Below are positions 1 through 58,307 of a stretch of 64,000 nt of DNA, one piece after another (the stretch's first letter is position 1; each line of letters opens with the position of its first letter). The notes under the pieces are model-generated. The model worked only from the letters and a program-made list of their open reading frames with translations, ran no database searches and was not told where the DNA came from. The stretch is taken from assembly GCF_026241195.1 (NCBI RefSeq), contig NZ_JAPFQO010000008.1:248001-312000 (forward strand). Direction: 5' to 3'. Position numbers and translations under genes: made by a program. Source of the DNA: Pontibacter anaerobius (lineage in GTDB: Bacteria; Bacteroidota; Bacteroidia; Cytophagales; Hymenobacteraceae).

Positions 1-58
1 AACCAGGGCGCGAAGTGCTGTTAAGCTTTTATCAAAATTATTTAAGGGAAGTGTCTAA
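1..58 (+). CDS. ECF sigma factor, C-terminal tail (partial)
   Basis: A reading frame is already open at base 2 and closes at TAA 56-58. Its last residues (TRARSAVKLLSKLFKGSV) look like the end of sigma region 4, where the recognition helix (typically GTVKTR-x-R-A) is followed by a short basic tail. The next gene is an RskA-type anti-sigma factor whose likely GTG start (51) overlaps this stop by 8 bases, the usual sigma/anti-sigma coupling. Only 18 residues are visible, so the identification rests on this motif and the neighbour. Confidence 0.6.
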   Translation, partial: TRARSAVKLLSKLFKGSV

Positions 59-887
59 CGAAGAATACATGGCATCCGGCATCCTGGAGCTTTATGCCGC
101 AGGTGGCCTCTCTCAGGCAGAGCGTGAGGAGGTGGAGCTGCGTGCTGCAAGCTCCCCTGAGATCCGCGCCGCACTGGATGAAGCCTGCGCGGCCATGGAG
201 GCCTATGCCCACCTGCATGCAGTGTCTCCAAGACCTGAACTAAAGCAAAGGATACTGGCACAGGTACAGGATGAGGCAAAAACTGATGCTGCCGATGCAC
301 CCGGGAATGATACGGCTGTTCCGTTTCCTTTACCTGATCAAGAAGCGGAAAGCTCCCCATACAAATGGATGTTTGCGGCCAGCATCGTGCTGTTCCTGAT
401 TTCGGGCATGCTAAGCTATCATTTCTACACCAAGTGGCAGCAGGCAGAACAAAGGCTGGCCACAGCCATGGCCTCGGAGCAACTTCTGGCGCAGGATATG
501 CAGCAAACCTCACTTAGAACGCAACGGCTAGAAGAGACACTAGCCATACTTCGTGACCCAAGCTACCAGCCTGTAAGACTGCAGGGCGTAGAGGCGCACC
601 CAGACGCGAACATGATTGTGTACTGGAACGCACAGAAACAGGAAGTATACATAGACGAGCTTAAACTACCGGCTCCACCAGCAGGCAAGCAATACCAACT
701 TTGGGCCTTGGACAACGGCAACCCGATTGATGCTGGTATGATTCCGCTAGCTGGTGCGGGTGCCGAACTACTCAGGATGAAACCAATTAAGGCTGCACAG
801 GCTTTTGCTGTAACCATGGAACCCGTGGGGGGCAGTGTGAACCCGACGCTGGAGCAACTTATGGTGATGGGCAAAGTAAAATCCTAG
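51..887 (+). CDS. RskA-type membrane anti-sigma factor
   Basis: Probable anti-sigma factor that holds the upstream ECF sigma factor at the inner membrane. With the GTG start at 51 (SNEEYMASGILELYAAG follows) it has about 278 residues. The N-terminal cytoplasmic helical domain resembles RskA/ChrR-like anti-sigma N-termini, whose usual opening is EYIASGILELYVLG. A membrane segment lies at about residues 107-126 (WMFAASIVLFLISGML), followed by a short coiled coil. The C-terminal 100 residues form the extracytoplasmic RskA domain, with the family's YQLWA and DAGMIPL motifs. An earlier GTG at 15 would add 12 residues unlike the family, so 51 is preferred. The start overlaps the sigma factor stop. 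The signal that releases the sigma factor cannot be read from sequence. Confidence 0.8.
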   Translation: MSNEEYMASGILELYAAGGLSQAEREEVELRAASSPEIRAALDEACAAMEAYAHLHAVSPRPELKQRILAQVQDEAKTDAADAPGNDTAVPFPLPDQEAESSPYKWMFAASIVLFLISGMLSYHFYTKWQQAEQRLATAMASEQLLAQDMQQTSLRTQRLEETLAILRDPSYQPVRLQGVEAHPDANMIVYWNAQKQEVYIDELKLPAPPAGKQYQLWALDNGNPIDAGMIPLAGAGAELLRMKPIKAAQAFAVTMEPVGGSVNPTLEQLMVMGKVKS

Positions 888-969
888 AAACTACGGCCGG
901 TCTCAAAAATGTTCCTGCCACACTTGTGCGTTAATAACCAAACACGCCTTTACCACTCCCCTGCTACTG

Positions 970-1716
970 ATGAACAAATTCTTATCCAAAGAGCAAGCAT
1001 CCATATTGCTTCGTGCCATCGAGGCGGAGAAAATTGCAGCTGTATATGAGCAGGAGAAACACCGGATTGCCTTGCCAGTCGAAAGCGGGAATGAGCAAGT
1101 ATACTTTAGGCTGCCGTTAGTGATTCCTGCCCCCGGCACCAGCCAGCCTGACAAAAAAGAGCAGGTAAACTATGTGATCCTGCTGATTCAGTCGGGGAAC
1201 TGCGCGATGGGATACTTTGAAAACGGCGTGAACCTGGACCACAAAGTTTTCCGCTCCTACATGGTCCGGAAGAAGCAGGGGAAAAGCCAGCTCAAGTACC
1301 TCAAGACCAAGGGCAAATCCAGGGCTGGCTCGCGCGTGCGATTGGGTGAAACAGTAGAGTTTTTTGAGAACATTAATGAGCGGCTGCAATCATACTTTGA
1401 GGATTACAGGGTAGACCGCATTGCCATCAGCTGCTCTAAAACCCTTATCCCCTACCTCTACAACTCCAAAACTGCCACGCCCTTCGATAAGCACGATCCG
1501 CGCCTGTATAAAATACCCAAGCACATCCACACGCCAATTTACGAGGTAATGCTGGACGCCAACCGCTTCCTGCTGCGGGGCGAGTTGATTTATGAGGAGG
1601 CACAGCAGGCTAAGGTAAACGAACTGCTGGCGCTGGCAGGGATTACAGATGTTGACGATGCACCCGAGGCGTATGATGGCGACACGGAGGAGGAAGGCTT
1701 TGATTTGTGGGATTGA
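970..1716 (+). CDS. VLRF1-like (Vms1-type release factor) domain protein
   Basis: This 248-residue cytoplasmic protein has no signal peptide or membrane segment. Residues about 65-175 resemble the VLRF1 fold found in eukaryotic Vms1/ANKZF1 and in uncharacterised bacterial homologues. The resemblance is a strand ending GYFENG, then VRKKQGKSQ with Gln107 in the G-x-S-Q loop, then SRAGSRVRLGE, then a helix ending in NINERLQSYF. In Vms1 the equivalent Gln is needed to cleave peptidyl-tRNA on stalled ribosomes. The C-terminus is acidic (DTEEEGFDLWD). Nearby genes are unrelated, so the role (ribosome rescue or tRNA cleavage) is inferred from the motif alone. Without a structure prediction it should otherwise be treated as a conserved hypothetical protein. 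Confidence 0.55.
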   Translation: MNKFLSKEQASILLRAIEAEKIAAVYEQEKHRIALPVESGNEQVYFRLPLVIPAPGTSQPDKKEQVNYVILLIQSGNCAMGYFENGVNLDHKVFRSYMVRKKQGKSQLKYLKTKGKSRAGSRVRLGETVEFFENINERLQSYFEDYRVDRIAISCSKTLIPYLYNSKTATPFDKHDPRLYKIPKHIHTPIYEVMLDANRFLLRGELIYEEAQQAKVNELLALAGITDVDDAPEAYDGDTEEEGFDLWD

Positions 1717-1873
1717 AACCCACTCAAACCGCAGCGGTAGCAACAAACTAAATGGCCCCCTCCACCACTGTTTTATACTTATACACGCAATAGTTTTAAC
1801 AAATTTCCCTGTTTTCAACCCGGAATAGTATACCTTATTATACCGGATTCGTGAAATTAGAGGAGTTACGACT

Positions 1874-2512
1874 ATGAAAAAGCATTCTATTTATTCCTGC
1901 TTCCTTCTTTCAACCGTTTGGGTCTTTTCGCAGTGCTCTGAGGCAAGTACAGAAAACGACATGCAGAAAGCCGGCTTTGATTCAGCAGGTCAGCAAGGAC
2001 CCGAGCAGTTAAAGAACGGAGGATACGCCAGCCAGATCGAGTTTGGGGAGCACCTGGTTTTAAGTATAGGTTGCCACGATTGCCACACACCTAAGATGGT
2101 GACCGAGAAGGGACTGGAGCCTGACTTCTCACGGGCGCTCTCGGGCCACCCCTCAAAAATGCCCCCACCAGACGTAGACCGTGCTGAACTCGAAAAGAAA
2201 GGATTGACGGCAAGCGATCATTTTACGGCATGGGTAGGCCCCTGGGGAATTTCTTATGCCGCTAACTTAACCTCCGATAAGACCGGCATCGGCACCTGGC
2301 AGGAGCAGAACTTCATCACCTCCATCCGGGAAGGAAAACACAAAGGAATTGCCACCGGACGCGATGTGCTGCCTCCAATGCCTTGGCCCATGTACAGAAA
2401 CTTGACGGACGAAGAACTAAAGGCAATATTTGCCTACCTGAAATCTACAAAACCCATACAGAATACCGTTCCACCTCCTGAGCCACCCGTTTCAGCAGGC
2501 GTTCAGAAGTAG
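1874..2512 (+). CDS. c-type cytochrome, monohaem, exported
   Basis: Exported c-type cytochrome of 212 residues. A signal peptide (about residues 1-20) ends at Cys21. Because the residue before Cys21 is Gln, lipidation is possible but not canonical. One haem-binding motif CHDCH lies at residues 67-71. A distal Met ligand is probable in the LPPMPWPMYRNL stretch, followed by the class I helix motif LTDEELKAIFAYLKS. The length and the insertion between haem site and C-terminal helix resemble the c-type cytochromes paired with periplasmic dehydrogenases. No redox partner is adjacent. The molybdo-hydroxylases farther along the window are candidates only by analogy. Confidence 0.8.
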   Translation: MKKHSIYSCFLLSTVWVFSQCSEASTENDMQKAGFDSAGQQGPEQLKNGGYASQIEFGEHLVLSIGCHDCHTPKMVTEKGLEPDFSRALSGHPSKMPPPDVDRAELEKKGLTASDHFTAWVGPWGISYAANLTSDKTGIGTWQEQNFITSIREGKHKGIATGRDVLPPMPWPMYRNLTDEELKAIFAYLKSTKPIQNTVPPPEPPVSAGVQK

Positions 2513-2550
2513 CGTTTATACTTCATATTAAACAATTGACTAGGCGCCAA

Positions 2551-2587
2551 CAGTTACACGGCAGAGGCTTTTGTGTGCCGTTAACTG
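2551..2587 (+). terminator. Imperfect hairpin after cytochrome gene
   Basis: The arms CAGTTACACGGCA and TGCCGTTAACTG pair with one bulge around a 12-base loop. The T-rich stretch after it is weak, so this may be a terminator or just an inverted repeat. Confidence 0.3.
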
Positions 2588-2636
2588 AACAATTGTCTTC
2601 TATTTCAGTATCTATAGCTGAACCAATACTTTAAAT

Positions 2637-3059
2637 ATGGATGCTCCTGAAGAGGTTCTTGATGAATCCGGAACTGTGCTGCCCAACCCGAAAGCACTTG
2701 TGCCCAAGGCACTGCAGGAAGTAAACGTGCTCTTTATAGGGCCTGTGGAAGATGGTTATTTCCAGCCTGTGCAGGACATGCTGCACACGCCGCCCCGCTG
2801 GGAAAAGGGAAACTACAGCATCACGGCGGGCAAATGGCCTGCTCCCGGCTCCACCGCAAACCTCATGGACCTCTCGCAGTATAACGGGTATGCCATCATG
2901 GTGATGGCTTCAGCCTGGGACAAGGAAGTGATCAGCCAGGCCAGGATATTCGGGGTACTGAACACCATGGCGAGCGATGTGATAGCTAAATTCGCATACG
3001 AGCACCAGCAGGGCAAAGAAGATGAAATTGCAGCTTACATCTCCGGTATCAGCAATTAG
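2637..3059 (+). CDS. Hypothetical protein, 140 aa
   Basis: I do not recognise the family. It is a soluble 140-residue protein without signal peptide or membrane helix. The sequence is Pro- and Gly-rich in the first 90 residues (LFIGPVEDGYFQPVQDML, PPRWEKGNYS), then predicted helical (DKEVISQARIFGVLNTMASDVIAKFAYEH). It stands alone between a cytochrome and a hydrolase on the same strand, with 124 bases upstream. Codon use and base composition match its neighbours, so it is likely a real gene. Confidence 0.5.
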   Translation: MDAPEEVLDESGTVLPNPKALVPKALQEVNVLFIGPVEDGYFQPVQDMLHTPPRWEKGNYSITAGKWPAPGSTANLMDLSQYNGYAIMVMASAWDKEVISQARIFGVLNTMASDVIAKFAYEHQQGKEDEIAAYISGISN

Positions 3060-3220
3060 TATCCTTCTAAAGTATAAAATCAGTCTTTCTGTAGCTTAGG
3101 GCAGGCGCAAACCACCTCTCACTTCTCTCCCTGTATACTTTACCGCTTCTCTTTGCTGCCGCAATTGTTTATATTTACTAGCTATACCTGTATCTACCTC
3201 ACCTTAAACAACAGAGAAGT

Positions 3221-4309
3221 ATGAAACTACTGTTACCTGCTATACTTGTGGGTTCGCTCCTGCTCCAGAGTTGCTCCACCTCTACTGATTCCGCCGTCTT
3301 GGAGAGCAACACCCCTGCCCTGTCAGAATACTTTGATAGCTCCGGCAAAGATGATCAGCTGAGTGGTGGAGTTAAGATGGTAAAGATCAACACCCCTTCC
3401 GGAGAATTCGATGTCTGGACGAAGCGCGTGGGTTATAACCCCTCCATGAAGGTGCTGCTGCTGCACGGTGGCCCAGGCGGCACCCACGAAGGCTTTGAGT
3501 GCTTTGACAGTTACCTGCCTAAAGAGGGTATAGAGTATTATTATTATGACCAGTTAGGTTCTCATTACAGCGCCCAACCCAACGACACCAGCCTCTGGAA
3601 CATACCCCGCTTTGTAGAAGAGGTCGAACAAGTGCGTAAAGCGCTGAACCTGGACAAAGACAATTTTTACCTGCTCGGCCATTCGTGGGGAGGCATACTG
3701 GCTATGGAGTACGCGCTTAAGCACCAGGATAAGCTTAAGGGCCTGATTATATCCAACATGATGTCGAGTATACCTGCTTACAACAAGTACCCTGATGAGG
3801 TGCTCGGCCCCCAGATGGACCCCAAGGTGCTGGCGGAGCTGAAGCAGATCGAGTCCGCAAACGACTTCTCCAACCCAAGGTATATGGAGTTGCTGATGCC
3901 GAATTTCTATACCAAGCACGCCTTGCGCATGCCGCTGGAGCAATGGCCTAACCCCGTTAACAGGATGTTCAGCCACATGAACCAGACGGTGTATGTACAG
4001 ATGCAGGGGCCAAGTGAGTTCGGCATAAGAGGAAACGCCTCGCTGAAAAACTGGGACCGCTCCGGCGACCTGGATCTGATAAAAGTGCCGACCCTGACAA
4101 TTGGCGGAGAGCACGACACCACGGATCCGGAACACATGAAATGGATGGCAGAACAACTACCGAACGGCAGCTATCTTTATTGCCCGGAGGGAAGCCACAT
4201 GGCCATGTATGACGACCAGAAAACATACTTTGCGGGCTTTACCACGTTCATAAAAAAGGTAGATGCCGAAAGAACTGCAACAGGCAACCAGCAAGTACAT
4301 GATTTGTAA
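3221..4309 (+). CDS. Lipoprotein alpha/beta hydrolase, proline iminopeptidase-like (S33)
   Basis: Probable exported lipoprotein peptidase of family S33 that removes N-terminal proline or hydrolyses small amides or esters. The signal peptide ends in LLLQSC, giving a lipidated Cys18. The oxyanion motif HGGPGG is at residues 81-86. The nucleophile elbow GHSWGG is at 152-157 with Ser154. The predicted acid is Asp298 (GGEHDTTDP) and the base His325 (EGSHMAMYDD). The 362-residue length suits proline iminopeptidases plus a lipoprotein leader. It is a single-gene unit closed by a strong hairpin at 4356-4400. Substrate specificity is not determined by these motifs. Confidence 0.85.
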   Translation: MKLLLPAILVGSLLLQSCSTSTDSAVLESNTPALSEYFDSSGKDDQLSGGVKMVKINTPSGEFDVWTKRVGYNPSMKVLLLHGGPGGTHEGFECFDSYLPKEGIEYYYYDQLGSHYSAQPNDTSLWNIPRFVEEVEQVRKALNLDKDNFYLLGHSWGGILAMEYALKHQDKLKGLIISNMMSSIPAYNKYPDEVLGPQMDPKVLAELKQIESANDFSNPRYMELLMPNFYTKHALRMPLEQWPNPVNRMFSHMNQTVYVQMQGPSEFGIRGNASLKNWDRSGDLDLIKVPTLTIGGEHDTTDPEHMKWMAEQLPNGSYLYCPEGSHMAMYDDQKTYFAGFTTFIKKVDAERTATGNQQVHDL

Positions 4310-4355
4310 CTAACTCCAGCCCTAACCTCTCTAAAGAGGGACGGGAAAGGAATAA

Positions 4356-4400
4356 GCAGCACAGCCCGGGCAGAAAGAGTACTTATCCGGGCTGTGCTGC
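4356..4400. terminator. Bidirectional hairpin terminator
   Basis: A 14-base perfect stem (GCAGCACAGCCCGG with its complement at 4387-4400) lies between the plus-strand hydrolase and the minus-strand DUF2892 gene that face each other. It is well placed to end both. Confidence 0.6.
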
Positions 4401-4406
4401 ATCGGT

Positions 4407-4628
4407 TTACTGGTGATGCCTGCTGTTGTTTTTGGGGCAGGTGTCTATTCCTATCAAAGTATACAACGGGCAGAACCCTACCAGGCTGGTAAGCACAAAC
4501 ACACCAGCAAATACGAGCAGCAAAATGCCTACCGTGCCTGTTAAGGTGCCGGTAAAGTATAAAACTGCTATCAGCACCGCAATTATCAGCCTGATAACCC
4601 GGTCTGTACTTCCCATGTTCTTTTTCAT
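4407..4628 (-). CDS. DUF2892 (YgaP-like) small membrane protein, copy 1
   Basis: Small inner-membrane protein of 73 residues with two hydrophobic segments (IIAVLIAVLYFTGTL; VGILLLVFAGVFVLTSLVGF) and the family's CPLY and DTC cysteines near the C-terminus. DUF2892 is the membrane part of rhodanese proteins such as YgaP. Alone its role is unknown, though many are linked to sulfur or thiol handling. ATG at 4628 (MKKNMG) is preferred over the GTG two codons upstream. It has a near twin at 9339-9560: the proteins differ at only six positions and the DNA is almost identical across the gene and a few bases beyond. The copies lie about 4.9 kb apart on the same strand, on either side of the stress protein and ATPase. 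Confidence 0.85.
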   Translation of the reverse strand: MKKNMGSTDRVIRLIIAVLIAVLYFTGTLTGTVGILLLVFAGVFVLTSLVGFCPLYTLIGIDTCPKNNSRHHQ

Positions 4629-4796
4629 GATCACTCAGATTATATCTTATTTTAAGATATTGTCGCAGGCTTTGGCATATTAAGTATACTTCTGCCTTTC
4701 TCTGATATAATTAAGCTCCTACAGGCTACAGAAAAGCTGTGACATTCATCATGCTTGCTGGTGTTAGAAGACTTTTAATTGCTCCCCAATACAAAA

Positions 4797-4827
4797 AATC
4801 CCTGGCCAGCAGAACTAGCCAGGGATT
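4797..4827 (-). terminator. Terminator of universal stress protein gene
   Basis: The stem AATCCCTGGC / GCCAGGGATT has an 11-base loop and is followed on the minus strand by a run of six T. It lies 60 bases past the stop of the stress protein gene. Confidence 0.7.
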
Positions 4828-4886
4828 CTCATTTATCAATCAGCTTAACCTTATACTTTAGCTTGAGGTAGTCTCCTGCAATACCG

Positions 4887-5747
4887 CTACAGCTGGTCTC
4901 TTTCTAGCCTGGCTTGTCTTCGCAGGTCGAGCAGGTTGCCGTTTTCTGGCAGTGCCAGCATCGGGATCTTCAGTGTCTTGAGCAACTGGGATGTAACACT
5001 GCTATGAAATATTTTCTCCCAGAACATCCTGTTAAGTATGGTAAAGGCCAGCAGGCTGGTGTCGTTTGCCTGCACGTACTTGGTAATGCCCTCGGCCACA
5101 TCTTTATTGGCTATCTCCATAAAATTCAGCTCAGCCTCCGGAAACTGCTTCACCAGGCTATCTTTAATGTACTCATCATCTATGTAGTCTGGCTGGCTCT
5201 CGCTCTTGATGTGCAGAAAGGTTATGGTAGCATTCAGCAGTTCTTTCAGGTTTAGCAGCTGCATGGTTGTTACCTGGTCGCCATTCTCAAAATCGGCAGC
5301 GTACACGATATGCTCTATCGGCCTAATGGCGGCACCCTCAGGTATAGCCAGCACCGGGCACAGGCCTTCTTTCGCAACGGACTCTGTGGTAGTGCCGAAA
5401 ACCTTTTTCGTAAAGTTCTTTGCGCCACCGGTTCCCATTACCACCAGGGTAACCCCGAACTCTTCAACCGCCTTTACTATCTCGCCAACTGCTCCTCCTT
5501 CTCTCACAATATACCTGACCGGCACATCACTTCTGTTAATATTTGCCAGTATACCGTCTAACTTCTGTTGTGCCGTCCTTTTGTCTTCCTCCACCTTGCC
5601 ACTGCCCAATCCAGGCAATATTGCTCCCTTTTCAGCGCTATGCATTACTACAATCTCTACCTGAGATCTGGACGCCAGGTCTAAGGCATACTCAAGAGCA
5701 CGGAAAGAACTTTCAGAGAAATCAACTGGAACAAGTAAAGTCTTCAT
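4887..5747 (-). CDS. Universal stress protein, tandem UspA domains
   Basis: Cytoplasmic stress protein of 286 residues formed of two UspA-like domains (about 1-145 and 146-280). The first carries the nucleotide-binding signature G-x2-G-x9-G-(S/T) in MGTGGAKNFTKKVFGTTTES and opens with KTLLVPVDFSESS. The second domain starts at HIVYAADFE and lacks a clear G-rich loop, so it probably no longer binds ATP. It is transcribed away from the P-type ATPase across a 493-base spacer. Usp genes often sit beside ion-transport ATPases, which suggests a shared stress response but does not prove it. Confidence 0.9.
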   Translation of the reverse strand: MKTLLVPVDFSESSFRALEYALDLASRSQVEIVVMHSAEKGAILPGLGSGKVEEDKRTAQQKLDGILANINRSDVPVRYIVREGGAVGEIVKAVEEFGVTLVVMGTGGAKNFTKKVFGTTTESVAKEGLCPVLAIPEGAAIRPIEHIVYAADFENGDQVTTMQLLNLKELLNATITFLHIKSESQPDYIDDEYIKDSLVKQFPEAELNFMEIANKDVAEGITKYVQANDTSLLAFTILNRMFWEKIFHSSVTSQLLKTLKIPMLALPENGNLLDLRRQARLERDQL

Positions 5748-6240
5748 GGTTTTAAAGTTTAGTGTGGAAACAATGGGTAAACATTACTTACCGCTTCATT
5801 ACGTAAACAAAACTACCTGATTAACAGCCTGATGCCAATAATGTTTATCATCTTAAAAATTGATCTTCGTCATCATTCGGCTGTAGCGAATGTATGAACT
5901 TTGTGTATGGCCTTTATTTCACCTTGGCCAATGCTTCAAATGATTATCAGACGATTGTAATGCTGTTTTTATACCTTCCTGAAGCAAACTAAAACAGGCT
6001 CAGGCTACATTTGGCGCTGTACAGTACAGGAAGGAAGACACGGCTATAATACCTGGTGACCAGGATGTGATAGGACCGATTTGTTTCATCAGGATTGTGC
6101 TCCTGCATGAAAATGCGCGTGAGTTCCACTCCAGTAACATAGTATAAATAAACAGTTTAATGCAAATTGAATTATAGCTTGATAAGCAAGCAACCCGTAA
6201 TAGTATAAGGCTTTATTATCACAGGATATCTACCACGACC
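5748..6240. other. Divergent intergenic region, stress protein / P-type ATPase
   Basis: This gene-free stretch of 493 bases must hold the promoters of two divergent genes. The only symmetrical elements I see are a short dyad CCTGGTGACCAGG near 6053-6065 and two AGTATAA boxes near the ATPase start (6148, 6203). I see no reading frame with coding character and no RNA gene. Confidence 0.4.
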
Positions 6241-9018: not shown

Positions 9019-9029
9019 TTTTAACGTAT

Positions 9030-48852: not shown

Positions 48853-49782
48853 TTAATAACCTTTGGTTCTAGAAACAAGATTGAGCAGGGGCTCTCCGCT
48901 TTGGGCCCTATCGTAATTTTCCAACAGCTGCACCACCGCCGACTCTGGATCGGTGACACTGGCAATGTGCGGTGTTACACTTATTTTAGGGTGCGTCCAG
49001 AATGGATGCCCCTCCGGTAGCGGCTCCTCCCGCAACACATCCAGGCTTGCCCCTGCCAGATGCCCCGCATCAATCACCTGGATCAGGTCTTCCTCTACCA
49101 GGTGCTCGCCGCGCGCTACGTTAATTACATAGGCCTGCTTGGGCAGCTTAAGTAAATTATCCTTGTTGAGGATGTTGGCCGTTTCGGGAGTAAGTGGAAG
49201 CAGGCAGATGAGAATATCCGCTGTGCCTAGAAAGGCATCAAGCTCCTCAGGGCCGGCGTATACTTTTATACTTTCCAGCCTCTTTGCGGAGCTTGCCCAG
49301 CCCGTTACCTTAAATCCAATGCTGCTGAGGCGGTGGGCAACTTCAGTGCCCAAGGTACCTATGCCCATCACGCCGACAGTTACATCTTCGTTTCTTTTAT
49401 ACTTGTGGGGTTTCCAGGTTTGCGTTTTTTCTGCAGCCTTGTAGGCATGAAGCCCACGCATATGGTTCAGCACCAGGGCCATGGTAAAATCAGCCATGTC
49501 GTTGGTCAGGTTCTCGTCCTTTATTCTGGTAATCTGTACCTGCTCCGGAATATCCGGATCTTTCAGGATGTGGTCCACGCCTGCACCAAGCGAAGAAATA
49601 CTTTTCAGGTTCGGGAATTCTTTAAACACGCCCAGCGGATGGTTCCAGGCCAAGGCGAAGGTAACCTCCTCGCGCGGCAGGTCATGGGGGTATATCCGGA
49701 CATCCAGTTCTGGCCTTTTCTCTTTAAGTGCTTTCACCCAGGGGCTCACATTTCTGCCCTGGCTAACTATCGTAATTGGCAT
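48853..49782 (-). CDS. D-2-hydroxyacid dehydrogenase, GhrA-like
   Basis: NAD(P)-dependent reductase of 309 residues, close to the glyoxylate/hydroxypyruvate reductase A group. The N-terminal catalytic half includes ISSLGAGVDHIL. The Rossmann domain has GVMGIGTLGTEVAHRL for cofactor binding. Active-site Arg is in VINVARGEHL, Glu in SLDVLREEPLP and His in PHIASVTDP. It reduces 2-oxoacids such as glyoxylate. It is read before the VOC gene, 2 bases apart, suggesting joint handling of small oxo-acids or aldehydes. Confidence 0.9.
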   Translation of the reverse strand: MPITIVSQGRNVSPWVKALKEKRPELDVRIYPHDLPREEVTFALAWNHPLGVFKEFPNLKSISSLGAGVDHILKDPDIPEQVQITRIKDENLTNDMADFTMALVLNHMRGLHAYKAAEKTQTWKPHKYKRNEDVTVGVMGIGTLGTEVAHRLSSIGFKVTGWASSAKRLESIKVYAGPEELDAFLGTADILICLLPLTPETANILNKDNLLKLPKQAYVINVARGEHLVEEDLIQVIDAGHLAGASLDVLREEPLPEGHPFWTHPKISVTPHIASVTDPESAVVQLLENYDRAQSGEPLLNLVSRTKGY

Positions 49783-50130
49783 AGTAAATTCGGGGTATCA
49801 GCAGCTGATTCTCTTTTAAAAGGGCAAGCCTTTACAGCTACAGCCACTAAGTTACGACCTATACTACAAAAGAACGGTATCAGCAGCTTAAAAATCAGGA
49901 CGTGCCTTCAGTAAAGTACTCTGGATACCATACTCAACGCCCTTAAACTTTGGGAAGGACATAAAAACAGAGCCTGCCTTAAGTTTTGCTTAAGGCAGGC
50001 CTTACATTTTTGAATTTCGAGCAAACATCAAGTTAGGTCGAAAAGCTTCTACAAGCTTAATTCAGGCTATCACCTGTCTGGTCGAAAACACAGAATGTAT
50101 GTTAGTATATACGTTGGTTTTCCGGTGGTG
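49783..50130. other. Intergenic region with one hairpin
   Basis: This region of 348 bases holds the upstream part of the GhrA-like gene and a terminator at 49972-50000. Apart from a duplicated HindIII-like AAGCTT pair near 50043-50060, I see no gene or RNA. Confidence 0.4.
49972..50000. terminator. Hairpin terminator
   Basis: Perfect 12-base stem GCCTGCCTTAAG / CTTAAGGCAGGC with a 5-base loop and a T-rich end on the minus strand. It probably ends the small membrane protein gene at 50131. Confidence 0.6.
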
Positions 50131-50343
50131 TTAAGCTGTCATATCCTGTTTTTCACTTCTACCCAGATAAATCCCGTAGGCAATAAGACCGAAGGCGGCG
50201 GCAAAAAGGATATACTGCTGCTCCTTTACCGATAGCCCTTTGTAAAAGTCGATGCCCCTCGTCGGGTCTTTGATAATATCGGCCAGTTGGGAAGGGTTGC
50301 TAACAAGGCTGCGCAGTGAGGTGTTTTCCAATGTATTTTCCAT
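50131..50343 (-). CDS. Small single-pass membrane protein, 70 aa
   Basis: Unknown protein of 70 residues. A soluble N-terminus (STRSLVSNPSQLADIIKDPT-like) is followed by KGLSVKEQQYILFAAAFGLIAYGIYLG, where about residues 47-62 form one membrane segment, and a short charged tail. It has its own terminator downstream. The composition is coding-like and small proteins of this design are common in this phylum, but no function is known. Confidence 0.55.
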   Translation of the reverse strand: MENTLENTSLRSLVSNPSQLADIIKDPTRGIDFYKGLSVKEQQYILFAAAFGLIAYGIYLGRSEKQDMTA

Positions 50344-50533
50344 AGTTTAGTAGCTGTTTTAGTAATTTCCTAGTAGATACGTCACTACGAGCGCATTAGA
50401 TATACTTAATCGATATATGCTGTTTCGCCGGCTACAAAGTATAAATCCGATCGCTGATCAACCTCCACTCTGATGCAAAATCAGAAGGTAGAGGCTAACT
50501 AATTGTGCTTTATCTTTGTTACCTACAGAAGCC

Positions 50534-50562
50534 TTGAAACTATACTTTAATAAGTAGCTTTG
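50534..50562 (+). promoter_or_regulatory. Promoter of selO, TTG-N18-TAnnTTTG
   Basis: TTG (50534-50536), an 18-base spacer and TAGCTTTG (50555-50562) match the Bacteroidetes housekeeping promoter exactly. The box lies 31 bases before the ATG of the SelO gene. A second TATCTTTG box at 50511-50518 lacks a spaced TTG. Confidence 0.55.
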
Positions 50563-50593
50563 AGGATAAGTATAAATCAATAAGCCTGTACCT

Positions 50594-52150
50594 ATGGAGA
50601 GCCTGCGCTCAAAGAAGTATAAAAAAGAATTTGTAGATACGTTTCCGGGCGACGAAACCGGTGACCTGACGCCACGCCAGACTCCCGGCATGCTGTACAG
50701 CAAAGCCCTGCCCACCCCCGTCGGGAGAGTTACCCTGCTGGCCTGGTCAGACGACCTGGCGGCAAAGCTTGGAATTCAGAAACCTGCTGATCAAAAGGAG
50801 CTGGACATACTCGGTGGAAACCATGTAACCGACACCATGTACCCCTACGCCGCCTGCTATGCCGGCCATCAATTCGGCGGCTGGGCCGGCCAGCTGGGCG
50901 ATGGCCGCGCCATTACGCTAGGCGAGTGGGAAACCCCTGACGACACATCATGGGAGTTGCAGCTGAAAGGAGCTGGCCCAACCCCTTACTCCCGCCGCGC
51001 CGACGGTCGCGCGGTACTGCGCTCTTCGGTGCGTGAATACCTCATGAGCGAAGCCATGCACTACCTTGGGGTGCCTACCACACGTGCCCTCAGCCTGGTG
51101 GCCACCGGCGATCCGGTGCTGCGCGACATGTTTTACAACGGCAACGCAGCTTTTGAGGCAGGCGCCATTGTGATGCGCGCTGCTCCGAGTTTCCTGCGCT
51201 TCGGCAACTTTGAGATCCTGAATGCCCGAAAGGAAACTGACAACCTGCGCCAGCTCGTGGACTGGACCATAAGCCGCTATTACCCACACATTAAGGGTGA
51301 GGATAAGATAGTTACCTTCTTTAAGGAAGTGGTAGAACGCACCGCGAGTCTGGTGGTGGAGTGGCAGCGGGTGGGCTTTGTGCACGGCGTGATGAACACC
51401 GACAACATGTCTATACTTGGCCTCACGATAGATTATGGCCCTTATTCCTTTCTGGATGACTATGATCCCGATTTTACGCCCAACACCACAGATTTGCCTG
51501 GCAGGCGCTACGCCTTCGGTAAACAGCCCAGCATCGCCTACTGGAACCTTGGTTGCCTGGCCGCGGCGCTGCTGCCTTTAGTAGAAAAGGATCAGCTGCT
51601 GCCTGCCCTGGAAACTTATAAGGAGGTGTATTGGCAGAAATACTACGCCATGATGGGCAACAAACTAGGACTAGACCGGGTTAGCCGCCTCGACACAGAC
51701 CTGATCACACAGTTCGAAAAAACACTTTCCTCGGTAAAGCCCGACATGGCGATCTTCTTCCAACTGCTGATAGACCTGCCGCTGTACATGGGCAGTGCAC
51801 AGGAAGTGGCGGAGCATTTTAAGGAAAGCTTTTATGATGAACTGAGCCAGGAGCAACACCAGCAGCTTTATACTTTGATTGAGAGCTACCTGGATCGGCT
51901 CAACAAAAACACCATTACCCGCAAAGTCTCGCAGGAGCTGATGCGCAAAACCAACCCGCGCTTCATACTTCGGAACTACCTGCTGCACCAGGCCATTGAG
52001 GAACTGGAAAAAGGCGAGACTGCTCTTTTCGAGAAACTCCAGAAAGCCATTAGAGAGCCATATTCTGATAAGTATGATGAGTTCTTTGCTAAGCGCCCGG
52101 AATGGGCTACGCAGAAGGCCGGGTGCTCCATGCTGTCTTGCAGCTCTTGA
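50594..52150 (+). CDS. selO: SelO-family protein adenylyltransferase (YdiU)
   Basis: Pseudokinase that transfers AMP from ATP to Ser/Thr/Tyr of target proteins (SelO family; 518 residues, full length). Motifs are QFGGWAGQLGDGRAITLGE (Gly-rich ATP region), QLKGAGPTPYSR, RADGRAVLRSSVREYL, the catalytic segment VHGVMNTDNMSILGLTIDYGPY with DYGP, and the C-terminal redox Cys pair in GCSMLSCSS. Some SelO proteins carry selenocysteine there; this one ends in Cys-Ser-Ser. Targets in redox defence are known from E. coli and mammals but not shown here. Confidence 0.93.
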   Translation: MESLRSKKYKKEFVDTFPGDETGDLTPRQTPGMLYSKALPTPVGRVTLLAWSDDLAAKLGIQKPADQKELDILGGNHVTDTMYPYAACYAGHQFGGWAGQLGDGRAITLGEWETPDDTSWELQLKGAGPTPYSRRADGRAVLRSSVREYLMSEAMHYLGVPTTRALSLVATGDPVLRDMFYNGNAAFEAGAIVMRAAPSFLRFGNFEILNARKETDNLRQLVDWTISRYYPHIKGEDKIVTFFKEVVERTASLVVEWQRVGFVHGVMNTDNMSILGLTIDYGPYSFLDDYDPDFTPNTTDLPGRRYAFGKQPSIAYWNLGCLAAALLPLVEKDQLLPALETYKEVYWQKYYAMMGNKLGLDRVSRLDTDLITQFEKTLSSVKPDMAIFFQLLIDLPLYMGSAQEVAEHFKESFYDELSQEQHQQLYTLIESYLDRLNKNTITRKVSQELMRKTNPRFILRNYLLHQAIEELEKGETALFEKLQKAIREPYSDKYDEFFAKRPEWATQKAGCSMLSCSS

Positions 52151-52158
52151 TATTGTTG

Positions 52159-52216
52159 CTACAAAGTATAAAAGCCTCCCCGGAAGTAGTTTCGGGGAGG
52201 CTTTTATACTTTGTAG
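52159..52216. terminator. Bidirectional terminator, perfect 24-base inverted repeat
   Basis: The 24-base arms (52159-52182 and 52193-52216) are perfectly complementary around a 10-base loop. Each arm contains AAGTATAAAAGCC or its complement, so the abundant TATACTT motif is built into the stem. It lies between the convergent SelO and aminotransferase genes. Confidence 0.8.
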
Positions 52217-52227
52217 CCAATCTCATG

Positions 52228-53082
52228 CTATACTTTTATCCTCGGCACTGACTCCTCCTCCAGCCTCACCAGATCCTCTAATAAAGAAAGTGTGATATCA
52301 CCTGGCTTGCCGGTTCCAATCACCTGCTCATCCACCTGCACGATGGGCAGGATACGCTTGGTAGTGCTGGTCAGGAACACCTCCTTTGCCTGGTAAACAT
52401 TTTCTAATGTTACAGTGCCTTCCACAGCTTTATACTTTTTGCCGGCCAGCGCCAGCACGTTCTTTCGGGTTACGCCCAGCAGCACGTTTTCCGCAGGCGT
52501 TACCAACGCATCATCCTCCCTCACAATAAACAGGTTACACCTCGGGAACTCCGACACCACGCCCTGCTGCTGGTACAGCACATCGCTGGCGCCACGGTTC
52601 TTTATCTCCTCTATCAGCCGGATGCCCATGGTGTAGTTGATGGTCTTGGCCCGGGGCACCTCCCGCACATATTCGTGTGTGATGATCTTGATGCCTTTCG
52701 CCAGCATTTCAGGGCCGGGTAGCATAAGCGGCTGCTGCAGTATAACCAGGCTCGGCTCGGCCGGGTCGTAGCCGTTTTCGGAGTACCCTCCCGTCAGGAT
52801 CATTTTCATGCCTGCCATGGGTATGCCGTTTTTGCTGATCAACTCCCGGATAACTGACCGGAGTTCTTCATCAGGTATGGGTACCTGCATTCGCATCGCC
52901 TGGGCTGAGGCGTGGAAACGCTCGAGGTAATCGTCCAAGAAAACCGGCCTTCCGTTGGATATTCTGAAGTAGTCGAAAACTCCATAACCGCGTTGTATAG
53001 AAAGGTCGCTGATGTGCAGTGTGGCCTGCTCCAGTGGCAGCACTTGCCCGCGCACATAGGCATAGTTAACGTTTGATTGCAT
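52228..53082 (-). CDS. Class IV PLP aminotransferase (D-Ala or branched-chain type)
   Basis: PLP-dependent transaminase of 284 residues in fold class IV. The opening SDLSIQRGYGVFDYFRI, the Schiff-base Lys146 in RAKTINYTMG and the late EFPRCNLFIV (phosphate/aminotransferase motif) are present. The K-T-I-N-Y context resembles D-amino-acid and branched-chain aminotransferases and aminodeoxychorismate lyase; sequence alone does not separate them. Its coding start overlaps the end of the DmpA-type peptidase gene by 17 bases, so they are co-translated in a D-amino-acid or peptide context. Confidence 0.85.
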   Translation of the reverse strand: MQSNVNYAYVRGQVLPLEQATLHISDLSIQRGYGVFDYFRISNGRPVFLDDYLERFHASAQAMRMQVPIPDEELRSVIRELISKNGIPMAGMKMILTGGYSENGYDPAEPSLVILQQPLMLPGPEMLAKGIKIITHEYVREVPRAKTINYTMGIRLIEEIKNRGASDVLYQQQGVVSEFPRCNLFIVREDDALVTPAENVLLGVTRKNVLALAGKKYKAVEGTVTLENVYQAKEVFLTSTTKRILPIVQVDEQVIGTGKPGDITLSLLEDLVRLEEESVPRIKV

Positions 53083-54202
53083 TATGTTTCTTTAACAGCT
53101 TAAGCACCTTATCAATCGGCAGCGCCTCCACCGTTCTGCCGTCTTTGCCCGTCATAGTTTCTGCCATAAAAAGCGAGTTGATGATAGCCTCTTCCGTAGC
53201 CTCGATCACCGCCATGAACATCGGCGACATTTCATCGTTCCGAAGTGTGGATGCCGCATGTGTTTTAGCATCTGAGGTGTAGGGTATACGCAACTCCGGA
53301 TTCGTGGAAAAGGCAATTACGTAATCGCCGCTCCCGTTTGAGGCAATGCCACCCGTTTTGGCAAGGCCCATCATGGCACGCTTGGCCATGCGCTCCAGGT
53401 TGCGGGCATCCACGGGCGCATCGGTTGCCACTACGATCATACAGGAACCATCTGCGCTGTCCTTGATCTGCTGGTGCATGTAATACTGCCCCAACTCCTT
53501 CCCCACCGGCACACCGTTTACCTGCAGCACGCCGCCGAAGTTTGTCTGTACCAGCACTCCCACCGTGTAGCCTCCTGCCTTCTCCGGCAGCTTTCTGGAG
53601 GAGGAACCGATGCCACCCTTCCACCCGAAACACACGGTTCCGGTGCCAGCCCCCACGTTACCCTCCTGCACAGCACCGGACTTTGCCTCTTGTACAGCCT
53701 GCAGCACATGCTCCTCCGATACATGCCTGCCCCGAATATCGTTCAGGTAACCGTCGTTCGTCTCTCCCACTACCGCATTCACCGACTGCACCTGCTCGTT
53801 GCCAGGTTGCTGCAAAGTATACCCTACCACCGCATTCATAGCCGTGCCAACGCTCAGGGTATTTGTAAGTATGATAGAAGTCTCAAGGTTGCCCAGCTCC
53901 TGCACCTGCGTGCTGCCGGTCAGTTTCCCAAAGCCGTTGCCCACGTACACGGCGGTGGGAACCTTTTGCTGAAACACATTGCCATTATGCGGAAGTATAG
54001 CTGTTACGCCGGTGCGGATGGCATCAGCTTGTATTAAGGTAGTATGGCCAACTCGAACACCATCCACATCGGTAATGGCATTATACTTTCCTGTTGGGAG
54101 TACGCCAATTTTAATGCCTTGTTCCCTGGCGCGTTTGTGCGCCTGGGCTTCAACATCTATGCTCATACTCAAAATTAGTAACAGGAGGAATAGAATTCTC
54201 AT
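53066..54202 (-). CDS. P1-family (DmpA-like) aminopeptidase, exported
   Basis: Exported peptidase of 378 residues in the DmpA/P1 (S58) family, which self-cleaves into two chains and trims N-terminal residues. The signal peptide ends VEAQA. The family opening GVLPTGKYNAITDVDGVRVGH is present. The autoprocessing site is at GIGSSS, giving Gly199-Ser200 as the predicted cut, and Ser200 would be the nucleophile. DmpA enzymes can act on D-Ala and beta-alanyl substrates. It precedes the class IV aminotransferase with a 17-base overlap. Confidence 0.88.
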   Translation of the reverse strand: MRILFLLLLILSMSIDVEAQAHKRAREQGIKIGVLPTGKYNAITDVDGVRVGHTTLIQADAIRTGVTAILPHNGNVFQQKVPTAVYVGNGFGKLTGSTQVQELGNLETSIILTNTLSVGTAMNAVVGYTLQQPGNEQVQSVNAVVGETNDGYLNDIRGRHVSEEHVLQAVQEAKSGAVQEGNVGAGTGTVCFGWKGGIGSSSRKLPEKAGGYTVGVLVQTNFGGVLQVNGVPVGKELGQYYMHQQIKDSADGSCMIVVATDAPVDARNLERMAKRAMMGLAKTGGIASNGSGDYVIAFSTNPELRIPYTSDAKTHAASTLRNDEMSPMFMAVIEATEEAIINSLFMAETMTGKDGRTVEALPIDKVLKLLKKHNAIKR

Positions 54203-54344
54203 CGCAAGCTGTTTATGCTTGAAGTAAATATAGGAAAAAGGAAGAGTAGTATGTAAAATTTATGCTTAAACCAGCTGAACATAAAAAAATCTATACAACA
54301 TGATGCTGCACCGCTTTCCTATATAGAAGATCTATATTTCAAGA

Positions 54345-57300
54345 CTACTTTTTAAGCAGCATTTTAACGTTCTCAGTTACATCTCCACTCTCTAATCTCA
54401 ACATATACATCCCTGTAGTAAGTTTAGCTCCATGTACCTCTACAGTTTGAGTTGCTCCGGCATTTGTCCTTCCCTGTTTCAAGATCTCCACCAATGCTCC
54501 CTTAGAGTCAAATAAACTTACCTTATACTCTCCATCTACCGGAAGCACAAATTGAACAGTAGCTTTGCCCGAAAACGGATTAGGATAAACACTTAGCATT
54601 CTCTCCCCTCCCGCTGCATCCACTGCCAATAGTTTGGAAGACGTGCTTACATAGCCTGGAGTAACAGTAAACTTTTCTTTTACCGTTATAGAGCCAGCAG
54701 TGGTATTAACAGAAACATTTACTCCTTTAGGTAGCTTACCCTTTATCTGTGGCACAACAGCTCTAATTTCTGTATCAGTGTTTGACCTAATTTCGGCCGC
54801 AGACGGACCGAACGTCACTTTAGTAGCACCGCTAAGCCCCCAGCCACTAATTATTACCACCGTTCCCTCTGGACCAGATTTTGGATTAAAAGCGCTGATA
54901 ATTGGTGCCGTAGGGTTAGAGTCGCTAACTGTGACGTTCACCAACGCAGAGTTTGTGAAGGCACCAGAGTTGTCTGTGGCCCGAGCCGTTAAGCTGTAGT
55001 TTCCGGCTGTTACGTTGCTCCAAGCATAGCTCCACCCATCGGTACCGTCCGTATCCAAGCCCAACCTATTAGAGTCTTGAAAGAACTCTACCATACTCAC
55101 TGTGCCGTCAGGGTCAGAAGCTGAAACTACAATATTTATGTTTGCTGGTGACGTGAGAGTAGTGTTGTTGGAAGGCGAAGTGATAGTCACAGAAGGCGCT
55201 TGGTTTGATGGCGATGCGACTGTAAAGTTAATTATATCTGAATTTGTAAAGGCGCCTTTATCATCAGTTGCCCTTGCCATCAAAGAGTATACGCCTACCG
55301 CCACGTTGTTCCATGTAAAACTGTAAGGGCTGGTTAAGTCTTCACCTAACTTAGTGGAACCATGAAAGAATTCTACTTTTGCAACGTTGCCATCTATGTC
55401 AGAGGCAGAGGCTAGAACGGTTATGTTGGCAGGTCCCATAAAAGTGGCATTATACTCCGGAGAGGTAATTGACACTGATGGAGCTTGATTGGCAGGATTA
55501 GTTGAAGTATAGGGAGTAAGGCGAATACCGGGGATTGGGCGCTCCTGCCCTCCGTCTGGTAAAGTCCAACCAACAGCTAAATGATCAGTATAATTTTCCT
55601 CTTTGTGAAGCGATTCAATATAATACTTTTGCCCAGCCTGAAGCGGAATAGCTATTGATTTTTGTGTAGTATACTTTTCCCACTCTCTGCTGTTGGTGAC
55701 TCCGTTCACATAAGCTATTCGTTTGCGGTTCACTGGGTTTTCATCCGAACTTAGCCACAACTCACTATTGTCATCACTCGCTATCCAAAAAATATAGTTA
55801 CCACTGACCGGAGGATGGATAAAAGCCCTTATCCTTGTGCCATAGTTATCAGCTACATTTGTAGGTTCCTCAAAAGAAGTGAGCTCAGATGTCATACTAG
55901 GTGGGGTATTTACAGGTATAGACTCTACGGTAGCGCCACTTATATTGCCCCAGTACTCTCTTACTATCGGCATAGCAGAAACACCACAATCAGGATTCAA
56001 GATAACTTCTTTTGCTGTGGCTGCCCCACTATCATCAGTTACTGTTAATTTAATAGTATAATAGTACGGCTCAGCTCCACATCCTAAAGGTGAGATTGTT
56101 GTTGTTGTTTGAGGGGCAGTATCAATAGGCTCAGGATGTTCATGGTCATTATGATGAAGGATGGTCTGCCACTGGTAAGATAACTGGTCGCTTGTATGCT
56201 CTTGATCTAATACCGTTGCCATTAATTCATATGTAACTTTGCCACTGTTAATAGGATAAAGTGTGTTTTTAGCAGGGCTAGTTATCTCTACTTGTGGTGG
56301 AGTATTATTTACAAAAACCTTTAGAGTAGTTTGCCCTGTACTTCCGGGAGGGTCTTTTACTGTAAGAGTAACAGTATAGGTAACAGGATCAGTCGTGCTC
56401 GTCGTAAAAGTATGTTCCGGGTTTACCTGTGTACTTGTGTTGCCATCCCCAAAGTCCCACAGGTAAGATAAGCTTTGCCCATCTGGATCGTAAGAGTCAT
56501 TCCCGCTGAACTGTACTGTCAAGGGGCTTGAGCCAAATAATTTATCAGATTTGGCTACGGCTACAGGAGTTCTGTTTCTGTACGTTACTCTCCTGATCTC
56601 AGAGGGATAGCTAACATAGTATATACCACCTTCAACAGGGTGAGTTGCCATGCCTACTACTACTGCACCACTATTGATAAAATTACTAACTGATACAGGT
56701 TTATCGTTTGAGTCGGTTTTAATGCTTCTAATCCAGCCTCCTGCATAATCTCCAAAAAAGAATGTATTCCTAAACTCTGGAGGAAAATCGTTTCTTGTGT
56801 AGAACACACCAGCGACAGAAGCGTTTCCTCCGAATTGAGGACCTGAAACAGGTGAACCTGCCGCTCCTATATTAGTTTCTGTAGCTAAATCTCCTTCAAA
56901 TGTAGCTGCTCTTGATGGACCTATGGTGTTGAATACCCAGTCGTGCATCCAATCTATAACAGGCCGACTGTGTAGAAAAGTTTTTACAGACGATGGTATA
57001 GCCTGTCCTGTGTTGCAAGGGTTACTGAATGTTGCTGTGCCACTGGCTGTTTCTTGTTTGATTAAATCTTGAAAGTAAAAATATTGTTGAGTACAACCAT
57101 TTGTACCAAACATAGGATTTGGAGCGTGATAGTTAAATGTTTTTAAGTTAGCATAGCCTATTAAATTTCCATTGCGATCGTACTGCGAAAGACCCTCGAA
57201 AATTGGCCACCCAAAATTCATACCTGGTTTGGTAACGATATTTAGGTCCTCCCAAGAATAGAACCCTACATCTCCTACATAGAGGACTCCAGGTCTTCCG

Positions 57301-58307
57301 TCTGATGGATTAACACTACCTGATCCTGGTTTAATTGACATACGAAAAGGATTACGTAATCCTAAAGCCCAGACTTTAGAACGAACTGATCCTGGATTAG
57401 AAGACTCATAATAAGGATTACTAGGGATACCTTCTCCTGTCTCTGGGTTGATACGTAATATTTTTCCGTTGTAGCTTTCAAGTAATTGCGAACGAAAAGC
57501 TCCAACGTTCTCTTCGCTGGTTATTATACCATCTAGCAGTGCTTGGGCATAGTAGGTATCGCTTGAGCTGCCTGCATCATGTCCGTCATAGCTAGCACCG
57601 TCTCCTGTTGAGACAAGTAGAGTACCATCAATACCAAACACCAAAGAGCCCACGCCATGGCTTTCATGCAAAGATGGGATTCCTGAACTTTTAGTAGCAC
57701 CTAAGAGCACTTTTCGGCTATTAGGATCTACATTGTAACCATTGGTAGCGCTTGTAGCGGTGTAACGGGTGACTCTGCCTATTGTAGCACTAAAGTATTC
57801 ATTTTTTGACGAACTATACTCACTGCTACCATAGTACATCAAATGATGGCGATCTACTGTATATAGCAGATAGAAGTAACCATTAACATCGAATTGTGGG
57901 TGCAGGACAAAACCAAGCAAGCCAAAGTCCCGCCATGCGCCTACTTCTTCACTTATATCTATTAATATTTGCTTCTGGTTATTTTTTACTACCCACACTT
58001 TACCCCCTTTTTCCCAAACAAACATTTGCGTACCATCTTTATTAAAGGCTAACCCCACTGCATCTTGCCATTGTGAAGATACCAGTTCGTTTGAAAAGCC
58101 AGAGGGCGGGGTTTGTGCTAACAGAAGCTGCCAAGAGTTAGCACCTACTCCGATTAGCAAGACTAAAGATGCCTTAATAAATAATCTACTTATTAAAGAC
58201 CACAATGTATTAACTGGAGTAATTGCGAACTGTACTTTTGCAACTTTAGGAAATGAACTTCGGACTAATTGTCCCTGCTTTTTTTTAAGCCAGTATCTCT
58301 TTCTCAT
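54345..58307 (-). CDS. Secreted PQQ-sugar-dehydrogenase-like protein with PKD, PA14, Ig, IPT domains and T9SS tail
   Basis: Very large exported protein of 1320 residues. A long basic N-terminus with a hydrophobic stretch (about 43-65, ending LLLAQ) is the signal peptide. Then come a soluble-glucose-dehydrogenase-like beta-propeller (about 70-580), a PKD domain (about 590-680; SYDPDGQSLSYLWDFGDGN) and an Ig-like region. A PA14-like region (about 795-930; WIASDDNSELWLSSDE), two tandem Ig-like domains (each starting NQAPSV-x-I-TSP, about 945-1135), an IPT/TIG domain (PKSGPEGTVVIISGWGLS) and a type IX secretion C-terminal domain (about 1240-1320; SVYPNPFSGKATVQF, VKMLLKK) complete it. It should be exported by T9SS, probably to oxidise sugars or bind carbohydrate. 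DNA here is visibly AT-richer than upstream. Confidence 0.85.
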   Translation of the reverse strand: MRKRYWLKKKQGQLVRSSFPKVAKVQFAITPVNTLWSLISRLFIKASLVLLIGVGANSWQLLLAQTPPSGFSNELVSSQWQDAVGLAFNKDGTQMFVWEKGGKVWVVKNNQKQILIDISEEVGAWRDFGLLGFVLHPQFDVNGYFYLLYTVDRHHLMYYGSSEYSSSKNEYFSATIGRVTRYTATSATNGYNVDPNSRKVLLGATKSSGIPSLHESHGVGSLVFGIDGTLLVSTGDGASYDGHDAGSSSDTYYAQALLDGIITSEENVGAFRSQLLESYNGKILRINPETGEGIPSNPYYESSNPGSVRSKVWALGLRNPFRMSIKPGSGSVNPSDGRPGVLYVGDVGFYSWEDLNIVTKPGMNFGWPIFEGLSQYDRNGNLIGYANLKTFNYHAPNPMFGTNGCTQQYFYFQDLIKQETASGTATFSNPCNTGQAIPSSVKTFLHSRPVIDWMHDWVFNTIGPSRAATFEGDLATETNIGAAGSPVSGPQFGGNASVAGVFYTRNDFPPEFRNTFFFGDYAGGWIRSIKTDSNDKPVSVSNFINSGAVVVGMATHPVEGGIYYVSYPSEIRRVTYRNRTPVAVAKSDKLFGSSPLTVQFSGNDSYDPDGQSLSYLWDFGDGNTSTQVNPEHTFTTSTTDPVTYTVTLTVKDPPGSTGQTTLKVFVNNTPPQVEITSPAKNTLYPINSGKVTYELMATVLDQEHTSDQLSYQWQTILHHNDHEHPEPIDTAPQTTTTISPLGCGAEPYYYTIKLTVTDDSGAATAKEVILNPDCGVSAMPIVREYWGNISGATVESIPVNTPPSMTSELTSFEEPTNVADNYGTRIRAFIHPPVSGNYIFWIASDDNSELWLSSDENPVNRKRIAYVNGVTNSREWEKYTTQKSIAIPLQAGQKYYIESLHKEENYTDHLAVGWTLPDGGQERPIPGIRLTPYTSTNPANQAPSVSITSPEYNATFMGPANITVLASASDIDGNVAKVEFFHGSTKLGEDLTSPYSFTWNNVAVGVYSLMARATDDKGAFTNSDIINFTVASPSNQAPSVTITSPSNNTTLTSPANINIVVSASDPDGTVSMVEFFQDSNRLGLDTDGTDGWSYAWSNVTAGNYSLTARATDNSGAFTNSALVNVTVSDSNPTAPIISAFNPKSGPEGTVVIISGWGLSGATKVTFGPSAAEIRSNTDTEIRAVVPQIKGKLPKGVNVSVNTTAGSITVKEKFTVTPGYVSTSSKLLAVDAAGGERMLSVYPNPFSGKATVQFVLPVDGEYKVSLFDSKGALVEILKQGRTNAGATQTVEVHGAKLTTGMYMLRLESGDVTENVKMLLKK

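Follow-up and report, generated by a model that had tools for sequence, protein, structure and literature searches.

A dense heptamer with clade-wise dialects in Pontibacter: a candidate pilus-independent DNA-uptake signal

To our knowledge, genome-wide sequence tags as strong as the one described here, with uptake shown, are known from two proteobacterial families, and the readers proposed for them are type IV pilins. The subject of this report is a heptamer, AAGTATA (TATACTT on the opposite strand), heavily iterated in a 64,000-nucleotide stretch of the Pontibacter anaerobius genome (phylum Bacteroidota; contig NZ_JAPFQO010000008.1, positions 248,001 to 312,000, hereafter the window, numbered 1 to 64000), throughout the rest of that genome and, in the form of several dialects, across much of its genus. 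We put the probability that the word may act as a pilus-independent DNA-uptake signal of Pontibacter at roughly 0.5. No published report of the motif, or of such a tag in the phylum, was found among open-licence articles in PubMed Central.

The DNA uptake sequences (DUS) of Neisseriaceae are, as described in excerpts of PMC3630211, present in thousands of copies, asymmetric, built from a constant core with variable positions and divided clade-wise into dialects, and the Pontibacter word is alike in each respect; it is unlike them in belonging to another phylum, in being shorter and AT-rich and in having no pilus ATPase found in the same genomes. The uptake signal sequences (USS) of Pasteurellaceae likewise occur in two clade-specific forms of substitution origin (excerpts of PMC1626085), and their inverted-repeat forms in spacers have been discussed as terminators (excerpts of PMC2346458), both with counterparts here, whereas our word has no strong flanking tracts past ~2 bases and only a slight gene-end bias. 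The cyanobacterial highly iterated palindromes (HIP1 and alternate HIPs) are also short words iterated genome-wide with alternates in some relatives, but in the excerpts of PMC4390886 they are palindromic and tied to a methyltransferase, while the word considered here is asymmetric and has no matching methyltransferase in the two families searched. Within Bacteroidota, natural transformation without pili has been proposed for Riemerella; it depends there on ComEC, DprA and a DUF1343 protein, all of which Pontibacter has too, and R. columbina prefers its own DNA (excerpts of PMC8459023 and PMC7965970). In most of the sequence features tested, a clear gene-end bias being the exception, the Pontibacter word appears to match DUS and USS, and it resembles their dialects more closely than it does HIP1, Chi or promoters. 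At about even confidence, we would class it as uptake-signal-like and not as a DUS proper.

The first-pass annotation of the window had claimed that the heptamer is over-represented, and this was borne out; the pattern is not limited to the window but runs through the whole genome and the genus. The window holds 106 exact sites (56 on the plus strand and 50 on the minus strand; 62 in called genes and 44 in spacers) as compared to a mean of 6.25 (standard deviation 2.47, largest 14) in 100 dinucleotide shuffles. AAGTATA is its most frequent 7-mer and AAGTATAAA its most frequent 9-mer, and the fuller form AAGTATRV occurs 134 times over positions 1..64000 on both strands. Across the whole genome (4.65 Mb, 29 contigs), AAGTATA was counted 8,810 times and the reversed word 385 times, a 23-fold excess over the control, so the genome-wide count is nowhere near expectation. 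In a 464-kb sample, made up of the window and 20 other stretches totalling 400 kb, on which most of the results on form and placement below are based, AAGTATA had the highest z-score of any 7-mer (844 copies vs 79 expected under a second-order Markov model), and AAGTATAAA reached 42 times its expectation.

The fuller motif is AAGTAT-R-V, with A, less often G, at position 7 and A, G or C at position 8 (T in 5%); position 9 shows a mild preference for A, and further flanks carry little information. Across eight samples, each pairing a word with a genome and together spanning three dialects (AAGTATA, AGGTATA and AACTATA), T seldom (3–9%) follows the heptamer, which suggests a single family of readers or receptors whose taste changed at positions 2-3. 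The preference is graded: observed-to-expected ratios were 22.9, 2.41, 1.10 and 0.98 at zero, one, two and three mismatches to AAGTATAA, with values of 0.76–1.26 for three control words, two of them shuffled and one reversed. Published enrichment of DUS and USS likewise falls with mismatch load (excerpts of PMC1939737).

Because genes were called with a home-made program (hexamer score; 79% of the sample coding), coding and intergenic densities are approximate; by these calls, 451 sites lie in genes (1.23 per kb), 381 in spacers (3.92 per kb) and 12 straddle a boundary. Genic sites occupy every frame and both orientations (218 sense, 233 antisense), and ~64 remain after synonymous-codon shuffling, leaving a 7-fold excess unexplained by codon choice; the corresponding excess was 5- to 7-fold in four further genomes spanning all three dialects (G174, G191, G192 and G195). 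The enrichment thus operates on nucleotides and not on protein, as the annotation had proposed, and its suggestion of a genome motif of the HIP1 or uptake-sequence kind is supported. The accompanying remark that ATA and CTT look uncommon did not hold: ATA accounts for 26% of the codons for Ile and CTT for 14% of those for Leu, the motif holding 11% and 7% of them, respectively, and ATA at least is not rare.

Among spacers of 15–1500 bases, site density per kb was 4.68 in convergent, 4.22 in divergent and 4.43 in tandem arrangements. No peak of sites was seen upstream of start codons in the sample, and a modest one was present in the first 25 bases past stop codons (4.9 and 4.7 per kb for the two orientations). 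By gene quintile, sense sites numbered 37, 40, 31, 49 and 49 and antisense sites 31, 42, 53, 44 and 53. The strands were roughly balanced along 40-kb bins (six of this genome and five of G174, the most uneven at 97/70), and a polar recombination or segregation site such as Chi or the FtsK-orienting polar sequences (KOPS) was rejected on this ground. In the sample, sixteen adjacent pairs of sites give rise to the palindrome AAGTATACTT. Sites are few (11) in this genome's 20-kb rpoB region, which is strongly conserved.

Strong enrichment is restricted to the genus. Among 204 genomes surveyed in the family, which include 50 of Pontibacter, it was seen in members of the genus only, with the next genus (g2) at or below ~2.5 times the reversed control. 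A survey of the order with ARSTATA (390 genomes, 18 of the genus) found nothing outside Pontibacter above ~2.2 times the control, 15 Pontibacter genomes at 4.7–11.9 times and three poor ones at 1.2–2.0 times. No comparable word was found in other genera of the family in samples of 40–120 kb per genus, from which two pieces of 288 and 2,498 bases were left out. As a separate observation, one genus of the family (g4) has 30 copies of the palindrome ACCTAGGT in 100 kb, with 2.6 expected, which may be a HIP-like word.

Within the genus, the density of AAGTATA ranges from 0.14 to 2.5 per kb, and many of the species poor in it carry other words. Genome-wide counts divide the 50 Pontibacter genomes into 19 with AAGTATA, 12 with AGGTATA, 8 with AACTATA (in four cases alongside AAGTATA) and 11 with little or none of these words. 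The twelve AGGTATA species belong to one clade, with 5,748–9,303 copies vs 226–357 of the reversed word, and four species have 12,524–13,168 copies of AACTATA vs 626–833 reversed. In the mixed genomes, AACTATA and AAGTATA number 11,674 and 5,110 (G160), 8,118 and 7,552 (G191), 6,094 and 9,116 (G158), and 3,531 and 10,614 (G195); the similar numbers of two dialects in G191 have a parallel in Simonsiella muelleri (2,257 and 2,292; excerpts of PMC3630211). Throughout the clade of G154, G184, G158, G160, G191, G174 and G163, the two words together number 14,507–16,784 per genome, irrespective of their proportions. Named 22.7-kb loci agree, with 34 copies of AAGTATA in P. cellulosilyticus and 47 of AGGTATA in P. 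aquaedesilientis. Each of the three words stays below 0.62 per kb in the eleven low species, among which G187 has a weaker AGGTATA signal (3,132 vs 545) and G162 a weak AAGTATA signal (2,905 vs 723). In G181, a Pontibacter without the three dialects, CTATATA was present 21 and 17 times in two 20-kb pieces (the reversed word 9 times in the second) and TATATATA was also frequent, possibly a fourth word or an effect of AT repeats.

The dialects follow the tree. On a midpoint-rooted tree of the 50 genomes built from rpoB alone, some nodes of which are weak, the dialect states require 8 parsimony changes (G187 being labelled AGG by hand) and place AAGTATA at the midpoint root; 1,000 shufflings of the labels gave a mean of 26.3 changes and a minimum of 20. 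The dialects, the restriction to a single genus, the degenerate positions 7 and 8 and the low plasmid density described below all go beyond what the first-pass annotation contained.

Alignments between relatives show how the sites turn over. The mixed genome G191 and the AACTATA genome G174 were aligned over 143.6 kb at 81.8% identity, with background 7-mers of equal G+C count identical in 33–35%. Of 264 aligned AACTATA sites of G191, 151 (57%) were kept in G174, a further 160 being unaligned, and those of G174 were kept in G191 at 151 of 319 (47%; 282 unaligned), whereas AAGTATA of G191 was kept in G174 at 36 of 220 (16%; 146 unaligned). At 25 of these 220 sites G174 now has AACTATA, which takes a G/C transversion, and at 11 it has AAATATA, which takes a transition, generally the commoner change. 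The fewer AAGTATA sites of G174 were kept in G191 at 36 of 72. The current dialect is thus conserved above background and the old word below it, and one replaces the other in place. Between G171 and G156 (93.3% identity, 38 kb), AAGTATA was kept at 75 of 93 and 75 of 92 sites as compared to backgrounds of 0.70 and 0.69. Single mismatches between relatives hit all seven positions. Of 395 AACTATA sites of G174 within alignments, one lay wholly in a gap, 50 partly and 344 were gapless; sites are thus rarely found in whole gaps, which points to an origin mostly by substitution and led us to reject insertion of a small element. USS likewise arise by mutation (excerpts of PMC1626085).

Plasmids carry the word at far below chromosomal density. 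Those of P. kalidii (73,841 bases), P. actiniarum (204,027 bases) and P. akesuensis (116,138 bases), examined over 73.8, 100 and 100 kb, hold 20, 25 and 23 sites, respectively, as compared to 128, 82 and 127 at genome-wide density, 14.0, 15.5 and 10.7 under the Markov model, and 5, 14 and 16 copies of the reversed word. The TraG proteins of the P. kalidii (NZ_CP111080.1) and P. actiniarum (NZ_CP021236.1) plasmids are 98% identical in different host species, so the plasmids are partly young, and their low density is as compatible with too little time as with an uptake drive. Mobile elements were also considered for the longest motif-free chromosomal gaps and rejected: the three longest in the sample contain 13 called genes, of which 10 could be annotated, and none of these looked mobile.

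Genome size is inversely related to the word. Over the 50 species, with rounded sizes, Spearman coefficients were −0.74 with summed density and −0.64 with summed counts, and 49 independent contrasts on the rpoB tree gave r = −0.70 and −0.55. The eleven low-word species average 5.71 Mb, and the means of the other three groups are 4.22–4.78 Mb. The G+C content of the rpoB region is tied both to counts (rho = −0.31) and to size (0.46), and the size relation is therefore to be read as a correlation.

These observations could be accommodated as follows. A cell-surface or periplasmic receptor would prefer word-bearing DNA, transformation would swap resident stretches for tagged ones, and word-creating point mutations would build up at tolerant chromosomal sites. 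Were the preference of the receptor to shift at positions 2-3 (AAG to AGG or AAC), the old sites would be left unprotected and sites of the new dialect would build up, often in place through one substitution, giving rise to dialects. Such machinery would have to work without type IV pili, in the way proposed for Riemerella. The likely reader of the word would then be a receptor for DNA uptake, and natural transformation the probable driving force. The fuller scenario, comprising a self-specific pilus-independent uptake system, several dialect switches within one genus with living intermediates, and loss of the tag with genome growth, is held more tentatively, at somewhat less than even odds.

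Several findings weigh against an uptake signal. For DUS and USS, pilins have been put forward as the receptors, and no type IV pilus ATPase was found here: PF00437 gave short partial matches only, mostly of 40–65 profile positions and, in 3 of 50 genomes, just above the cut-off. The PF00437 search thus offers nothing to indicate type IV pilus machinery with a sequence-reading minor pilin, the pilins themselves not having been searched. ComEC (PF03772), DprA (TIGR00732) and NamZ/DUF1343 (PF07075) matched in all 50 genomes, motif-less species equally, so this machinery is present without a link to the motif and none of the three can be the discriminating gene. On the supporting side, stops or frame changes break ComEC and DprA together in two genomes, G166 and G186 (the rpoB regions of both and another 20 kb of G166 have normal open frames), and this joint loss suggests that the pair works as one module; yet G186 has 2.02 sites per kb, and with G166 at 1.00 site per kb, lowish for its part of the tree, there is no clean link between the broken genes and the motif. 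In Riemerella, the excerpts of PMC7965970 give only A-rich top k-mers. Sites become only slightly more frequent toward the 3' ends of genes, unlike the terminal bias of Pasteurellaceae (excerpts of PMC2346458). Finally, plasmid density is 1.4–2.2 times the Markov model, not exactly chance, and may be low through plasmid youth only.

The main rival, which we consider unlikely, is a mutational product similar to HIP1, with a DNA methyltransferase and mismatch-repair or site-biased repair favouring the word, and with dialects reflecting changed methyltransferase specificity. HIP1 and alternate HIPs have been proposed to arise by this route (excerpts of PMC4390886), iteration density is of the same order (~1 per kb for HIP1, up to 3 per kb here), and some PF07669 (Eco57I-type) match, uneven in kind and strength, exists in 47 of 50 genomes. 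However, the HIPs and HIP1 extensions listed in those excerpts are palindromic and this word is not, mismatches are spread over all seven positions instead of one repairable base, and the plasmids carry the word much more sparsely than the chromosomes do. For PF01555 methyltransferases, 19 of 50 genomes gave no match, among them G000 and the motif-rich G154, G156, G158, G161, G163, G174 and G184, and PF07669 was only weakly matched (E 1e-6 to 3e-10) in five genomes (G154, G158, G163, G174 and G191). Enzymes of these two families, the ones searched, do not fit the distribution of rich and poor genomes and were rejected as the cause, and the methylase site put forward in the annotation is a weakened option.

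Rather less probable is a directly selected chromosome-wide site, architectural or protein-binding (for a nucleoid, partition or repair factor), whose specificity co-evolves. The graded preference, the conservation over background and the low plasmid density would all suit such a site, but there is no clear strand polarity, so it would not be Chi- or KOPS-like; a structural need is hard to square with thousands of sites turning over between related species and with 11 of 50 congeners being almost free of the word, and copy numbers exceed those known for such sites. We think it more doubtful still that the word is selfish or linked to defence, such as a self-marker protecting the chromosome from a nuclease. 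Low plasmid density and dialects are compatible with this, as are the larger genomes of low-word species, but no candidate nuclease is at hand, none having been searched for, and three plasmids persist in word-bearing hosts. As a full explanation, promoter −7 boxes (a further suggestion of the annotation) or codon usage can be set aside even though TATACTTTG resembles TAnnTTTG and spacers are richer than genes, because sites occur in all frames and on roughly balanced strands, exceed the synonymous null 5- to 7-fold, are as dense in convergent spacers as in divergent or tandem ones, and show no peak upstream of starts; of the earlier interpretation, the nucleotide-level genome motif thus stands and the promoter boxes do not.

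Should the word indeed be an uptake signal, Pontibacter would bring uptake-signal systems to a new phylum and offer a natural series in which receptor and tag co-evolve, and a further tag without pilus genes would point to a new DNA receptor in Bacteroidota. With three dialects, species in mid-switch (G158, G160, G191 and G195) and tag-poor species in one genus, the question whether such words spread through uptake bias, repair bias or selection becomes testable by comparison. The inverse size relation, for its part, is relevant to the question of whether genomes are kept small by selective transformation.

Within the window, 14 sites were counted at 1-5000, where at least 12 had been claimed, and 9 at 15000-18000, where at least 9 had been; the span 1-58300, for which the pattern had been described, holds 101 of the 106, and four individually named sites lie at most 2 bases from where they had been placed (15519, 16159, 17131 and 17399). 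Six of the 9 sites at 15519..17652 are within called genes, in all three phases. The full palindrome, also reported earlier, is present four times: AAGTATACTT is found within called genes at 1097..1106, 37936..37945 and 47142..47151 and in a spacer at 4682..4691. Four sites in both orientations (43480 −, 43521 +, 43570 − and 43614 −) mark a divergent gene boundary at 43480..43620, and five more in both orientations (50401 +, 50437 −, 50541 +, 50568 − and 50615 −) occupy 50401..50621. The claim that the motif contributes to terminator stems also proved right, in that sites 52164-52170 and 52205-52211 are the outer arms of a terminator-like stem-loop at approximately 52158..52217. This strong stem (−49.7 kcal/mol at 52151-52225), the clearest of a few inverted pairs that make such structures, is flanked by convergent genes at 50594-52150 (plus strand, SelO) and 52228-53082 (minus strand).

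The end of the window, 58301..64000, is poor in the motif (5 sites in 5.7 kb), and a site-free gap at 58701-62346 with 35% GC lies over an exopolysaccharide-type gene (Wzz/AAA_31); low density together with low GC might be expected of recently acquired DNA. A P-type ATPase encoded in the window has five Pontibacter proteins, at 70–78% identity, as the best of 80 relatives. Elsewhere in the window, molybdopterin genes are located at 30003-41838, encoding a MobA/MobB-like protein, MoeA and two molybdopterin-binding oxidoreductase large subunits.

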